From Flavobacteriales bacterium (GTDB taxonomy: Bacteria > Bacteroidota > Bacteroidia > Flavobacteriales_F > PHOS-HE28): a DNA stretch of 64,000 bases. Positions 123 through 51,634 of the stretch are shown piece after piece; the first letter of the stretch is position 1; each line of letters opens with the position of its first letter. Both the position numbers and the translations under genes were made by a program. Location of the stretch: NCBI GenBank assembly GCA_024103275.1, contig JAGFIV010000090.1, positions 1 through 64,000 on the forward strand, written 5' to 3'. Under the pieces are notes generated by a model, which saw only the letters and a program-made list of their open reading frames with translations, ran no database searches and was not told the DNA's origin.

Positions 123-128
123 GCGGCA

Positions 129-225
129 GGGCTATCGCGTCTTATTTCTCCCGCCAGTACTGGGCCTGCTGTTCCTACCCCTTTGCCGAAGTCATGACCG
201 TTGATGAATGAAGACGCGATAGCCC
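129..225. mobile_element. Short copy of a MITE-like palindromic element
   Basis: A 97-bp element is bounded by perfect 15-bp terminal inverted repeats, GGGCTATCGCGTCTT at 129-143 and its complement at 211-225. The same ends and the same inner flanks recur at 48829-49054 in a 226-bp version. This short copy matches the left 33 bp and right ~64 bp of the long copy with about two mismatches and lacks the central hairpin region, so it looks like an internal deletion derivative. It encodes nothing plausible. It sits between a T9SS gene and prfB. Confidence 0.8.
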
Positions 226-297
226 CGTCCAATACCTGCCGATCCGGCCTCTGCTCCGTAACTTCGCCGCCCGAAAATTTCCCTCTCCGCCCACGCC

Positions 298-1398
298 ATG
301 ATCACCATCGAGAAGATCAACGACCTCACCGAGCGGCTGGAGGCGCTGAAAGGCTATCTCAACGTGGAGGAGAAGCGCGGGCAGATCAAGGAAGAGGAGA
401 AGTACACCCTGGACCCCGATTTTTGGAACAACCAGAAAAAGGCCCAGGCGGTGATGCACAAGATCCGCGAGCTGAAGCGCTGGGTGGAGCTGTACGAGGG
501 CGTGAAGCGCGAGGTGGACGACGCGGAGGTGACCTACGAGTTCTTCAAGAGCAAGGACGCCACCGAGCAGGAGCTGGAGGCCCAGTACAAGAAGGCCCTG
601 GCGGCCTTGGAGGAGCTGGAGTTCAAGAACATGCTCAGCGCCGAGGAGGACCCGCTGAGCGCCGTGGTGCAGATCACCAGCGGCGCGGGCGGCACCGAGA
701 GCAACGACTGGGCGCTGATGCTGCTGCGCATGTACCGCATGTGGGCCGAGAAGGAGGGATACCAGGTGAAGATCCTCGATTATCAAGATGGCGAAGCGGC
801 GGGCATCAAGCAGGCCACCATGGAGGTGGGCGGCGAGTTCGCCTTCGGCATGCTGAAAGGGGAGAACGGCGTACACCGCCTGGTGCGCATCAGCCCCTTC
901 GACAGCAACGCGCGGCGCCACACCAGCTTCGTCAGCGTATACGTGTACCCGCTGGTGGACGAGAGCATCGAGATCGACATCAACCCGGCGGACATCACCT
1001 GGGACACCTTCCGCAGCGGCGGCGCCGGCGGCCAGAACGTGAACAAGGTGGAGACCGGCGTACGCCTGCGCCACGCACCCACGGGCATCATCATCGAGAA
1101 CACCGAGACACGCAGCCAGCTGGACAACAAGAACAAGGCCTTGCAGCTGCTGAAGAGCCAGTTGTACGAACTGGAATTGGAGAGACGACGCAGTAAGCGC
1201 AGCGAGATCGAGGCGGGCAAGAAGAAGATCGAATGGGGCAGCCAGATCCGCAACTACGTGCTTCAACCGTACAAACTGGTGAAGGACGTGCGCACCGACC
1301 ACGAGACCAGCAGCGTGGATGATGTGCTCAACGGCGAGATCGACGAGTTCCTCAAGGCCTGGCTGATGCAGCACGGGCAGAGCCAGAAAATTGCTTGA
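298..1398 (+). CDS. prfB: Peptide chain release factor 2
   Basis: Class I release factor that reads UGA and UAA and triggers peptidyl-tRNA hydrolysis on the ribosome. At 366 aa it has normal RF2 length. The stop-codon-recognition tripeptide SPF is at residues 199-201 and the catalytic GGQ at 244-246 ([10 protein letters not shown] context). In many bacteria prfB carries an in-frame UGA near codon 25 and needs a +1 frameshift. Here the equivalent spot after LKGYL reads straight through (CTC AAC GTG), so the autoregulatory frameshift is absent. The ATG at 298 gives a full N-terminus matching the family. Confidence 0.97.
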
Positions 1399-47999: not shown

Positions 48000-48209
48000 C
48001 CTTCCCGTCTCCGGCCGTGCGAGTTTTTCGACAGGTCGGGGAGATCCATGCTGCGCACGGAATGGTCGGCAAGCAGTTCCGCGTTGAACGGGTTCAATGG
48101 CTCACGGCATGGCTGCTCGCATTTGTGCACCATGGTAGTGTCCATTACCCTTGAAGAAGGACTGTGGCGGCGGCGAATGTTGCCGTAACGCGATCAATCA
48201 CGCACCAAC

Positions 48210-48452
48210 ATGTCAACTGCGGACCTGGACCCTGGTCAACACTGGGAGCGATTCCTGGAGAGCAAATTGGCGACCGGGAAATAGGGATCGATCGGAGAGG
48301 TGGTCCGTGAGGCGCTGCGTTACATGGAGGAGCGCGACGAACGGGTGCAACTGCTCCGCAGGCATTTGTCCGAAGGAGCTGAACAGGCGGCCAAAGGACA
48401 GTTTGGCACGGGTTGCTCGCTTGATGGCTTGTTAAGCGGATTGGATGCCTGA
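48210..48452 (+). pseudogene. parD-like antitoxin pseudogene (in-frame stop)
   Basis: The reading frame gives an 80-codon ParD/RHH antitoxin, but codon 25 is TAG (48282-48284) between TGK and GSIGEVVREALRYMEERDERV. In the ParD family this position is usually Tyr or another residue before GS..EVVREAL, so a single base change explains it. The gene overlaps the parE remnant that follows, in the normal ParDE order. Confidence 0.85.
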
Positions 48453-48747
48453 GCCGGACCGGAAATTCCGGATCACACCGTGGGCCAAGGCCGATCTGGT
48501 CAGTATCGGGCGCTACTCGGAAAGGGTTTGGGGGAAGAAGACAGCGCGGTCGGTACCCCGCTGAGCTGGATGCCTGCTTCCATTGGCTGGCGAAGAATGC
48601 CCGCTTGGGCCGGCATAGGCGGGAGATACATGAGGGGTATTACAGTATGCCCAAGGAGCCCACGTCATTTTCCATGTGATCAGCGGGGCGTACGTCGACA
48701 TCATCGGTATCCCCCACAAGGCCATGGACATAGATGATTTCTTCTGA
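48445..48747 (+). pseudogene. parE-like toxin pseudogene (two frameshifts)
   Basis: Pieces of a RelE/ParE toxin are spread over three frames: the start MPEPDRKFRITPWAKADLV.SIGRYSERVWGKK, then, after one frameshift near 48560, ELDACFHWLAKNARLGRHRREIHEGYYSMPKEP, then after another near 48660 HVIFHVISGAYVDIIGIPHKAMDIDDFF ending at TGA 48745-48747. Each piece fits the family in order, so the gene is dead, matching the broken antitoxin. Confidence 0.85.
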
Positions 48748-48828
48748 ATACATGTCGTTTTTGCCGCGGACCCACCGAGCGGCGGATCGACGGGTTCTCC
48801 TTCGGCCTGAAGGCCCTGTGCCCCCTGC

Positions 48829-49054
48829 AGGGCTATCGCGTCTTATTTCTCCCGCCAGTACTGAGAATGTGCCGGAACAGCAGGCCCAGCGTGCGGCGAT
48901 CCTGTCCCCCTCGTGCCCGCCGAACGGCGGGCTCAGGGCGAGGGGGCGGACCTAAGCGAGCGGCGGTCCGGGGAGCAAGGAACGCACGCTGGGCCTGCTG
49001 TTCCTACCCCTCTGCCGAAGTCATGACCGTTGATGAATTAAGACGCGATAGCCC
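48829..49054. mobile_element. Long copy of the MITE-like palindromic element
   Basis: 226 bp with 16-bp terminal inverted repeats identical to those at 129-225. Inside, a 22-bp inverted repeat (48874-48895 with 48983-49004) encloses hairpins CCCCCTCG/CGAGGGGG (48906-48913/48939-48946), CCCGCCG/CGGCGGG (48916-48922/48925-48931) and CGGACC/GGTCCG (48947-48952/48965-48970). No transposase is encoded. It lies between the dead parDE and the thiamin riboswitch promoter. GTGCCCCCTG occurs just outside both ends but not exactly adjoining, so a target duplication is uncertain. Confidence 0.85.
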
Positions 49055-49088
49055 TGGTGCCCCCTGTGCCTCTGTGGTGAGATCCACC

Positions 49089-49096
49089 TATCTTTG
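49089..49096 (+). promoter_or_regulatory. -7 box (TATCTTTG) of the thiamin receptor gene
   Basis: Perfect TAnnTTTG; transcription would start near 49102, exactly at the 5' edge of the riboswitch. Confidence 0.75.
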
Positions 49097-49103
49097 CGCC
49101 GTC

Positions 49104-49185
49104 TTCCAACGGGGTGCCTCCGCGCGATGCGGAAGCTGAGATCATACCCGATGAACCTGCGCAGGTAATGCTGCGAAGGGACCGC
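49104..49185 (+). promoter_or_regulatory. TPP (THI-element) riboswitch
   Basis: All conserved blocks of the thiamin pyrophosphate aptamer appear in order: GGGGTGCC, CTGAGA, ACCCGATGAACCTG, GGTAATGC and GAAGGGA. It begins directly after the promoter box and ends about 45 bases before the ATG of the TonB receptor. A downstream hairpin, CTCCGTG (49203-49209) with CACGGAG (49220-49226), covers the GGAG next to the start codon and is a candidate expression platform. Confidence 0.95.
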
Positions 49186-49231
49186 ACCGGACCGCCGGGC
49201 ACCTCCGTGAAAGACGCAACACGGAGAGCGG

Positions 49232-51634
49232 ATGAAAGGCAGGATCTTCCTCTTGGGCTTGGCGACGATCACGGGCATGACCCTTTCGGCCCAAGTGAAA
49301 TTGACGGGCACGGTATACGATGCCACAGACGCACCGGTGCCCTTCGCAAGCGTGTTTTTCACCGACCGTGGATGGTCGGTGGCCGCCGACGCACAAGGAC
49401 GCTTTCAGGCCGGGGGGCTGGTCCCGGGCGGATTGCGGCTGCGGATCAGCGCCGTCGGCCTTGAAACATTGGACACGTTGGTGCACATGGAAGCGGGCGG
49501 CAACGCCATGCGCTTCACCTTGCGCCAGGCCACGCGTGAACTGGCGCCGGCGGAGGTGACGGCCCTTCGGGCGGGCGACCGCGCCCCCTTTGCCAAAAGC
49601 GTGGTGACCGCGGAGGAGATCCAGCGCAACAACAACGGCACCGACCTGCCCTTCCTGCTGGACATGCAGCCCAGCCTGGTGGCCACCAGCGATGCAGGCA
49701 CCGGCATCGGCTACACCGCCATGCGCATCCGCGGCAGCGATGCCACACGCACCAACATCACCATCAACGGCGTTCCCTTCAACGATGCCGAAAGCCAAGG
49801 TGCCTTCCTGGTGAACCTGCCCGACCTGGCGGCCAGCGCCGAGGATATCGAGGTGCAGCGCGGCGTAGGTACCAGCACCAACGGTCCGGGCGCCTTCGGG
49901 GCCAGCATCAACCTGCGCACCACCGCGGTGAAGGCAAAGGCATGGGGGACCGTTAGCGCGGGCGGCGGCTCGTACAACACGCAGCGCTACGCCGTCAGTG
50001 CAGGCACGGGCCTGCTCGGCAGCTCCAATGCCTCGCGGTTCAGCCTCGATCTGCGCCTGTCGTCCATCACCAGCGATGGATATATCGACCGGGCCACGGC
50101 CGACCTGAAGAGCTACTTCCTCCAAGGCGCGTGGGTGGGGAAGGGGCGCTCGCTGCGCTTCATCACCTTCCGCGGAAAGGAAGTGACCTACCAGGCCTGG
50201 GACGGTGTGCCGCGCGAGGTGATCGATACCAACCGCACGTACAACGGCTTCACCTACGACAACCAGGTGGACAATTACGACCAGACGCATTACCAAGTGC
50301 TCTTCGACCAGCAGCTGGGGAAGAACGCCGTGCTCAACCTCACCCTCTTCCGCGTGCTGGGTGCCGGCTACTACGAGCAGTACAAGCCCAACGACAAGCT
50401 GTCCACATACGGGATTGCCTCGCCGCTGGTGGTGAACGGCGACACGCTCACGCGCACCGACATCATCCGCCGCCGCTGGCTGGACAACGTCCTCTGGGGC
50501 GCCAACCTCAGTGCCGCCATCAAGCTGGGCGCCCACACGCTCATCCTTGGCGGCAGCTACAGCGACTACCGGGGCGACCACTTCGGCGAGGTCATCTGGG
50601 CGCGCTACGCGGAAAACATCGGCATCCGCCACCGCTACTACGGCAACGACGCACATAAGACGGACGCCAACGCCTACGCCAAGTTGACCTATGCCCTGCG
50701 CGGTAACCTGGACCTGTACGGTGACCTGCAACTGCGCACGGTGGGGTACCGTTTCCTTGGCATCAACCACCAACTGCAGGACATCACCCAGCACGTGGAG
50801 TGGACCTTCTTCAATCCCAAGGCGGGCCTGTTGTGGCGGCTGGCGCCGGGTGTGCAGGCATACGCATCCGCTGCCGTGGCCAACCGGGAGCCATCGCGTG
50901 CGGACCTGCAGGAGAACACTTCGGACCAGCGCGTCCGCGGTGAGCACCTGCTGGATTATGAGCTCGGTTTCGACCGCCGAACCGGCAGGTGGAACATGGG
51001 CCTCAACCTATTCTACATGGACTACACGGACCAGCTGGTGCTCACAGGCGAGCTGGGCGATACCGGTGCCGACCTGCGCACCAACGTGCCTAAGAGCCAC
51101 CGTGCGGGCGTGGAACTGACGGGGGGCGTGCAGCTGGCCAGGCCCCTGGTGTGGAAGGCCAACGCCACGTTCAGCACCAACAAGCTCGACGGTTTCACGG
51201 AATACGTGGACGACTGGGACAACGGCGGGCAAGTGGCCATTGCCCACGGCCGAAGCAACCTCTCGTTTTCGCCTTCCGTGATCGCGGGCAGCGAACTGCG
51301 CTGGCAACTTTGGAATAAGCGGGCCAAAAGCAGCTTTGACCTGGCCTGGATCAGCAAATACGTGGGACGGCAGTACCTCGACAACACCACCAGCTCCGAT
51401 CGCATGCTGGATGCCTACTGGGTGAACGACCTGCGCCTGAACGCCACGATCCTCAACGTGAAAGGCACCAGGTTCATCGACCTCAACCTCACCGTGCGGA
51501 ACCTCTTCAGCGAGCTTTACGAGAGCAACGGCTGGAGCTACGGCTACATCAGTGAGGGGCGGAGGCAGGAGATGGTCAATCTCTTCCCGCAGGCACCGAT
51601 CAACGTGCTGGGCGGGGTGAGTGTATCGTTTTGA
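49232..51634 (+). CDS. TonB-dependent receptor, probably for thiamin
   Basis: 800 aa: signal peptide (KGRIFLLGLATITGMTLSAQ), CarboxypepD_reg-like domain (21-100), plug with the TonB-dependent receptor pattern (MRIRGSDATRTNITINGVPFND), and a beta barrel ending in VSVSF with a terminal Phe. The TPP riboswitch directly in front means it is shut down when thiamin pyrophosphate is plentiful. Such receptors in Bacteroidota are predicted thiamin transporters, so that is the best substrate guess. Confidence 0.93.
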   Translation: MKGRIFLLGLATITGMTLSAQVKLTGTVYDATDAPVPFASVFFTDRGWSVAADAQGRFQAGGLVPGGLRLRISAVGLETLDTLVHMEAGGNAMRFTLRQATRELAPAEVTALRAGDRAPFAKSVVTAEEIQRNNNGTDLPFLLDMQPSLVATSDAGTGIGYTAMRIRGSDATRTNITINGVPFNDAESQGAFLVNLPDLAASAEDIEVQRGVGTSTNGPGAFGASINLRTTAVKAKAWGTVSAGGGSYNTQRYAVSAGTGLLGSSNASRFSLDLRLSSITSDGYIDRATADLKSYFLQGAWVGKGRSLRFITFRGKEVTYQAWDGVPREVIDTNRTYNGFTYDNQVDNYDQTHYQVLFDQQLGKNAVLNLTLFRVLGAGYYEQYKPNDKLSTYGIASPLVVNGDTLTRTDIIRRRWLDNVLWGANLSAAIKLGAHTLILGGSYSDYRGDHFGEVIWARYAENIGIRHRYYGNDAHKTDANAYAKLTYALRGNLDLYGDLQLRTVGYRFLGINHQLQDITQHVEWTFFNPKAGLLWRLAPGVQAYASAAVANREPSRADLQENTSDQRVRGEHLLDYELGFDRRTGRWNMGLNLFYMDYTDQLVLTGELGDTGADLRTNVPKSHRAGVELTGGVQLARPLVWKANATFSTNKLDGFTEYVDDWDNGGQVAIAHGRSNLSFSPSVIAGSELRWQLWNKRAKSSFDLAWISKYVGRQYLDNTTSSDRMLDAYWVNDLRLNATILNVKGTRFIDLNLTVRNLFSELYESNGWSYGYISEGRRQEMVNLFPQAPINVLGGVSVSF

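Follow-up and report, generated by a model that had tools for sequence, protein, structure and literature searches.

The 229-bp palindromic element found in the window (the whole stretch of DNA that was analysed, 64,000 nucleotides from contig JAGFIV010000090.1 of a Flavobacteriales bacterium) is very probably a non-autonomous DDE MITE, moved in trans by an ISAs1-family transposase and inserted in a fixed register upstream of the -7 promoter motif, the steering by RNA polymerase being the part that we infer. Terminal identity with an ISAs1-family IS, 10-bp target-site duplications (TSDs), the spread of copies, an unoccupied site and the target register can all be read from the sequences compared. 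On these grounds, an ISAs1-family transposase would act in trans on the MITE ends, and it may dock on promoter-bound RNA polymerase. The features of the window that bear on this proposal are the following:

48828..49056, no strand assigned: full-length MITE of 229 bp (CAGGG...CCCTG), delimited by paired ends within the genome's own set of copies
48828..48845, + strand: left terminal inverted repeat (TIR) CAGGGCTATCGCGTCTTA, 18 bp, perfect
49039..49056, - strand: right TIR
48818..48827, + strand: left copy of the TSD GTGCCCCCTG, 10 bp
49057..49066, + strand: right copy of GTGCCCCCTG, on the promoter side
48874..48895, + strand: left arm of the inner inverted repeat, 22 nt, 100% complementary
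48983..49004, - strand: right arm of the inner inverted repeat, mostly kept in short copies
49089..49096, + strand: TATCTTTG, putative -7 promoter motif (TAnnTTYG, consensus from PMC7366714), 32 nt beyond the long copy
49100..49198, + strand: candidate TPP riboswitch aptamer, scoring 37.5 bits (E 1.1e-5) against a gathering score of 54.3
49232..51634, + strand: TonB-dependent receptor gene, downstream of the TATCTTTG promoter
127..227, no strand assigned: short MITE of 101 bp, without the inner stem or the centre
259..266, + strand: TAACTTCG, putative -7 motif, 31 nt beyond the short copy
298..1398, + strand: peptide-chain release factor gene (PCRF and RF-1 domains), downstream of the TAACTTCG promoter

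A preliminary description had presented this element as MITE-like, with nested palindromes, and both palindromes have been located. The outer arms (48828-48849 and 49035-49056) are 22 nt long and 95% complementary, perfectly so over the first 18; the outer inverted repeat is present as described, although the true ends lie 1-2 bp further out and the perfect TIR measures 18 bp. The 22-bp inner inverted repeat was recovered at its full length, and the interior contains two clear hairpins together with smaller pairings, not exactly the three smaller hairpins proposed. Folded as DNA, the 229-mer reaches z = -9.9, and as RNA it reaches -10.0 on the + strand and -9.1 on the - strand, a stability equalled by 0/200 shuffles of either strand, and the interior deprived of its TIRs still folds (z = -5.8). 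The exact 15-mer is present four times within the window; five matches are obtained when as many as three mismatches are allowed, a number reached by only 2/100 shuffles. Upstream of the element, the alignment of window positions 48207-48747 to congener DNA has a one-base gap near 48647, which is possibly a frameshift in the gene located there or an assembly error.

The element is not confined to the two copies of the window. In its own genome (G000; 137 contigs, 3.58 Mb), a DNA search returned 69 matches, of which many were hairpins matching themselves, and the pairing of ends yielded 20 elements: 15 long (218-230 bp), four short (101 bp) and a single relic of 86 bp. Matches that were partial and had no paired ends were excluded from the copies (e.g., C134:15378-15458, 69%). 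One long copy, on C106, has a degenerate right end, and 13 long copies show pairwise identities of 90.8-97.8% (mean 95.2%). Exact 10-bp TSDs flank 8/20 copies, none of the 20 is flanked by an exact duplication of any other length between 5 and 14 bp, and at least 9/10 positions are duplicated in 11/20 copies versus 4/380 mismatched flank pairs. The term MITE is thus borne out by 20 copies of 86-230 bp with 18-bp TIRs and 10-bp TSDs. The four matching cross pairs are reciprocal (C30/C86, C86/C98, C37_78k/C26short, and C106/C37_78k), and reciprocal duplications involve the window copy at 127-227, C37 at 78 kb, C106, and C30/C86/C98 (L006, L009, L016, L019, and L020). They look as if copies had recombined with one another, rearranging the genome, or alternatively as if these regions had been misassembled; reciprocal duplications of this kind have been described for ISs of Aeromonas (PMC5756416). 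According to a crude gene caller, 13/20 copies lie outside predicted genes. Among 45 genomes of the genus, the MITE interior is present only in that of the window and absent from the 44 congeners.

The shorter second copy that had been noticed at the other end of the window (127-227) belongs to the 101-bp form, in which the deleted stretch corresponds to the sequence between two CTGGG repeats. Short copies share 94.4% identity with each other and 94.9% with long ones, and this form may go back to a single deletion passed on by descent or, possibly, to recurrent slippage at the palindrome. Lacking the inner stem, the short copy does not retain the stable fold (z +1.6). Three of the four short copies have a TSD of 9-10/10, and because copies without the palindromic interior have TSDs of their own, this interior appears to be dispensable for transposition.

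The preliminary description had also stated that the element lacks a transposase and may be mobilised in trans. In its own assembly, neither a family search nor a DNA search detected an ISAs1-family transposase, and the parent IS was therefore deduced from congeners; the MITE is possibly orphaned in this assembly, or its parent may be unassembled (a collapsed repeat among 137 contigs). The element ends were found in 6/147 related genomes searched, all six within the genus. Autonomous elements with these ends exist in two congeners: G004 (Flavobacteriales, JAMLHB) carries three 1216-bp ISs with ends identical to those of the MITE and 10-bp duplications, and G043 carries one 1218-bp IS with the same ends, CAGGGCTATCGCGTCTTA forming both ends in both genomes. 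Identity between the MITE and the 1216/1218-bp ISs covers 18-20 terminal nt and nothing is alike inside the ends, which rules out the MITE as an internal-deletion derivative of these ISs. The 368-aa protein of each IS kind matches NF033564 (transpos_ISAs1) with 371 and 367 bits, the cut-off being 70, and contains the domains PF13808 and PF01609; NF033564 is its sole NCBIfam match, and nothing besides these three models appears at E 0.001. The ISAs1 family duplicates about 10 bp of target. Among the ISs, kept only with three or fewer TIR mismatches, TSDs are 10/10 in the 3/3 copies of G004, 4/10 in that of G043 and 3/10 in that of G032. An ISAs1 match is present in 4/45 genus genomes, three of them above the cut-off.

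In congeners, these ends also delimit MITEs whose interiors are unrelated. A family of 233-248 bp (the 245-bp family) occurs in G004, G006, G028, G019, and G031, and, with ends that differ by three bases, in G032 and others; further sister MITEs are a 229-bp element in G003 and a 261-bp one in G004. Outside the window's own genome, elements with more than three TIR mismatches were kept only if the TSD reached at least 7/10, which biases the TSD counts upward. The second TIR type, CAGGGCAAACGCATCT, differs from the first in 3/16 bases and both are found side by side in several genomes, and TIR switching is accordingly not claimed. Nested GACCCC...GGGGTC palindromes resembling the 245-bp interior are also seen without visible ISAs1-type ends (L138, L139, L140, and L160), and the interior of this family may be an independent repeat. 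In two 245-type MITEs of G019 (L151 and L155) the centre looks interrupted or extended by further sequence. Beyond the genus, a MAG of the Anaerolineales contains MITEs of 151-160 bp with the end CAGGGCTATCGCGTCT (L089, L090, L098, L099, L103, and L106), with 9-10/10 duplications in 5/6 and a long inner palindrome of the ATTCGTG type; an ISAs1 transposase was not found in the record of this MAG that was searched, NF033564 being absent from the records of L080, L085, and L089. Hits of CAGGGCTATCGCGTCTNA in Pseudomonas, Cyanothece, Caldilineaceae, Elusimicrobia, Anaerolineae CHL11, and Dehalococcoidia were set aside as chance matches with no convincing paired end, about 30 being expected in 257 Gb by our own estimate. 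The genomes used are mostly draft MAGs.

Regarding the structured interior, it is conceivable, if somewhat doubtful, that selection maintains it as an RNA or DNA device carried by the MITE and acting as terminator, mRNA stabiliser, or insulator, an idea compatible with trans-mobilisation into promoters. The fold that persists without TIRs would agree with it, as would the palindromic nature of most of the unrelated sister interiors (z -2.4 to -7.3 in 8/8 elements of the 245-bp kind, variants included) and the two-sided changes that keep pairs in the 245-bp family (11 pairs and 28 cells in 20 aligned members; means of 5.4 and 7.5 in shuffles, with 0/500 reaching 28 cells), although this covariation is overstated, the shuffling ignoring relatedness. 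On the other hand, the short copies transposed without the interior, and folding is weak in two sister MITEs, that of G003 (z -2.2) and that of 261 bp (z -0.4).

The feature missed by the preliminary description, whose identification of a MITE otherwise stands, is the register of the insertion sites with respect to promoters. The motif TAnnTTTG is the -7 consensus of the housekeeping sigma factor of Bacteroidota, and no -33 motif was detected in Flavobacterium johnsoniae, according to PMC7366714. The idea of a TAnnTT(T/C)G motif some 31 nt beyond one end was suggested by the own copies, and other elements then served to test it. An exact outward-reading TAnnTTYG (6/6) at 29-32 nt is present in 13/20 own copies (control windows, mean 0.06 and maximum 1), in 8/27 other MITEs of the genus (control 0.16) and in 3/5 ISs (control 0). 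With at least 5/6 positions, the counts are 17/20, 19/27 and 5/5 for own copies, other genus MITEs and parent-type ISs, respectively, versus 0.50, 0.62, and 0.16 in control 4-nt windows; no such motif is found at 29-32 nt in 3/20 own copies and 8/27 sister MITEs. In the 13 exact own copies the distance averages 31.3 nt (sd 0.9), with the caveat that the flanks of C30 and C37_167k hardly differ and perhaps represent a single target. Pooling 104 flanks, 25 exact hits occur in 416 positions at 29-32 nt versus seven in 13,908 positions elsewhere, and the inward-reading motif has no hit in these flanks. Furthermore, a gene reads away from the element on 16/16 testable motif sides versus 7/20 other sides (Fisher p = 5e-5), and within the window the motif is mildly enriched upstream of genes (six sense versus one antisense). 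In window orientation, the motif lies on the right in seven and on the left in six of the 13 exact own cases, and therefore the orientation of the element is free. From its consensus, conservation and gene orientation, the motif is presumably a promoter in this genus.

The target of the long copy of the window can be compared with congeners. In the orthologous riboswitch leaders of five congeners (G031, G019, G004, G006, and G028), TAnnTTYG occupies the same place and no MITE is present; because these MITE-free congeners carry the motif there, the promoter would be older than the insertion. The orthologous position is unoccupied in G028, as seen in one HSP that crosses the joined junction with 70% identity, not base-exact; the other five congeners compared align at one side of the insertion point only. 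The riboswitch at 49100-49198, which precedes the TonB-dependent receptor gene, is a divergent one. In summary, the search for further copies, target duplications, an autonomous relative and an empty site, which the preliminary description had suggested, gave 20 copies (full and deleted), 10-bp duplications, ISs in G004 and G043, and the unoccupied site of G028, contrary to the two copies with no empty site that would have refuted the description.

According to the mechanism proposed here, an ISAs1-family transposase would cut in trans at the CAGGG of the MITE, which shares only the terminal repeat of about 18 bp with the parent IS, and would insert it via a 10-bp staggered cut of the target. 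The transposase would be steered by promoter-bound RNA polymerase, or by the geometry of the promoter DNA, and would land some three helical turns from the -7 motif, where the footprint of the polymerase may have its upstream border. Owing to the 10-bp duplication, some 40 bp of the core promoter would remain undamaged.

The main rival of polymerase steering is the direct reading by the transposase, with no participation of RNA polymerase, of a two-part DNA target, one part of it being TAnnTTYG at a distance of three turns. This is considered unlikely, despite the fact that TAnnTTYG is the only strongly conserved feature and its spacing is constant within about 1 nt. Between the element and the motif there is no conservation beyond composition, and no column upstream of the motif exceeds 0.35 bits, TSD included, whereas the motif itself is a known -7 promoter consensus. 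In addition, the Anaerolineales copies lack TAnnTTYG at 29-32 nt (0/6), but 2/6 have TATAAT or TACAAT at 41-42 nt; -10-like boxes lie elsewhere in two others and are absent from the remaining two, in a sample too small to define a register. Much less credible is random insertion followed by purifying selection that spares only insertions just upstream of core promoters. The location of most copies outside predicted genes, and the harmlessness of an insertion that keeps about 40 bp of promoter, would be in agreement with selection; however, any position further upstream should be equally tolerable, and yet the distance has the small deviation given above and control windows further out are nearly devoid of hits.

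Fixed-register promoter targeting is already known for the TnGBS, ISLre2, and some ISKra4 elements, which insert upstream of sigma-A promoters at 15-17 bp from the -35 box, a contact with RNA polymerase having been proposed for them (PMC3942029). These are DDE elements as well, and those with symmetrical ends use both orientations, like the free orientation reported here. The fixed distance upstream of promoters has its counterpart in the present element, with promoters recognised by consensus, and the ISAs1 family would be the addition made by this analysis. On the other hand, the transposases of the TnGBS group are Mutator-like (p-MULT), of another superfamily, and have a motif between N1 and N2 that is linked to promoter targeting, whereas only NF033564, PF13808, and PF01609 are matched here; their register is counted from the -35, and here it is about 31 nt upstream of the Bacteroidota -7 with no visible -33; and they are not MITEs. 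The name ISAs1 occurs 0 times in PMC3942029, and titles and abstracts revealed no earlier description of ISAs1 elements that target promoters, a coverage outside which most subscription journals lie. Within the ISAs1 family (NF033564; PF13808 and PF01609), the MITE has the identical terminal repeats and 10-bp TSD of the IS of its genus, but no transposase and nothing in common with the IS inside the ends. ISAs12 of Aeromonas has CAGGG ends and 10-bp TSDs likewise (10/10 in 4/8 copies). Its eight copies on one Aeromonas plasmid, pE31A, show no clear promoter register: -10-like boxes (at least 5/6) lie at 55, 57, and 58 nt in 3/8, in a window picked afterwards, others are at 12, 16, 26, and 69 nt, and 4/8 have none. 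Promoter targeting across the whole ISAs1 family is consequently not claimed.

Other bacterial MITEs, such as Chunjie, QMITE2, and MITEPye1 (the last one tied to IS1182), are likewise of 100-250 bp, with TIRs, TSDs, stable stem-loops, internally deleted copies and intergenic placement; in contrast to the present MITE, no fixed promoter register is described for them in the excerpted texts of PMC10969869 and PMC11578231. The REP/RAYT system has no TIRs or TSDs and its Y1 transposase gene is linked to the repeats. Movement of a REP/BIME-like palindrome by a RAYT (Y1) transposase, which the preliminary description had entertained, can be practically discarded: the element is a palindromic intergenic repeat and the genome does encode Y1_Tnp proteins (four hits, in a search of 10 genomes), but these lie on C107, C63, C77, and C104, none with a copy, and the long TIRs and 10-bp TSDs are those common to DDE ISs. 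REP/RAYT and GTAG/CGTC palindromes are palindromic intergenic repeats too, of 20-40 bp (PMC3733652), whereas the present MITE has TIRs, TSDs and a partner of the DDE type, with no Y1 gene in its vicinity. The IS of a congener combines the ends of the MITE with duplications of 10 bp and a transposase of the ISAs1 family, and mobilisation in trans by ISAs1 accordingly takes the place of the REP/RAYT proposal.

With regard to its biological meaning, landing at one distance upstream of promoters would let the MITE spread without breaking genes. The Mutator-like DDE elements TnGBS, ISLre2, and ISKra4 are the sole fixed-distance promoter inserters presented in the excerpted text of PMC3942029, and a second DDE family acting on a different sigma consensus would, if true, point to the transcription machinery as a general address for transposons. 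It is tentatively suggested, at somewhat less than even likelihood, that a Bacteroidota lineage of ISAs1-family transposases and its MITEs independently evolved the targeting of sigma-ABfr-type promoters by polymerase contact, in convergence with TnGBS/ISLre2 of Firmicutes and Ty3 of yeast, and that the MITEs of the Anaerolineales, which share these ends, may behave likewise at TATAAT promoters. The system is compact (18-bp ends and one 368-aa protein) and would be suitable for asking whether a transposase reads RNA polymerase. Finally, the insertions may serve as a computational promoter finder, each one of them marking a promoter in an uncultured lineage that has no start-site maps.
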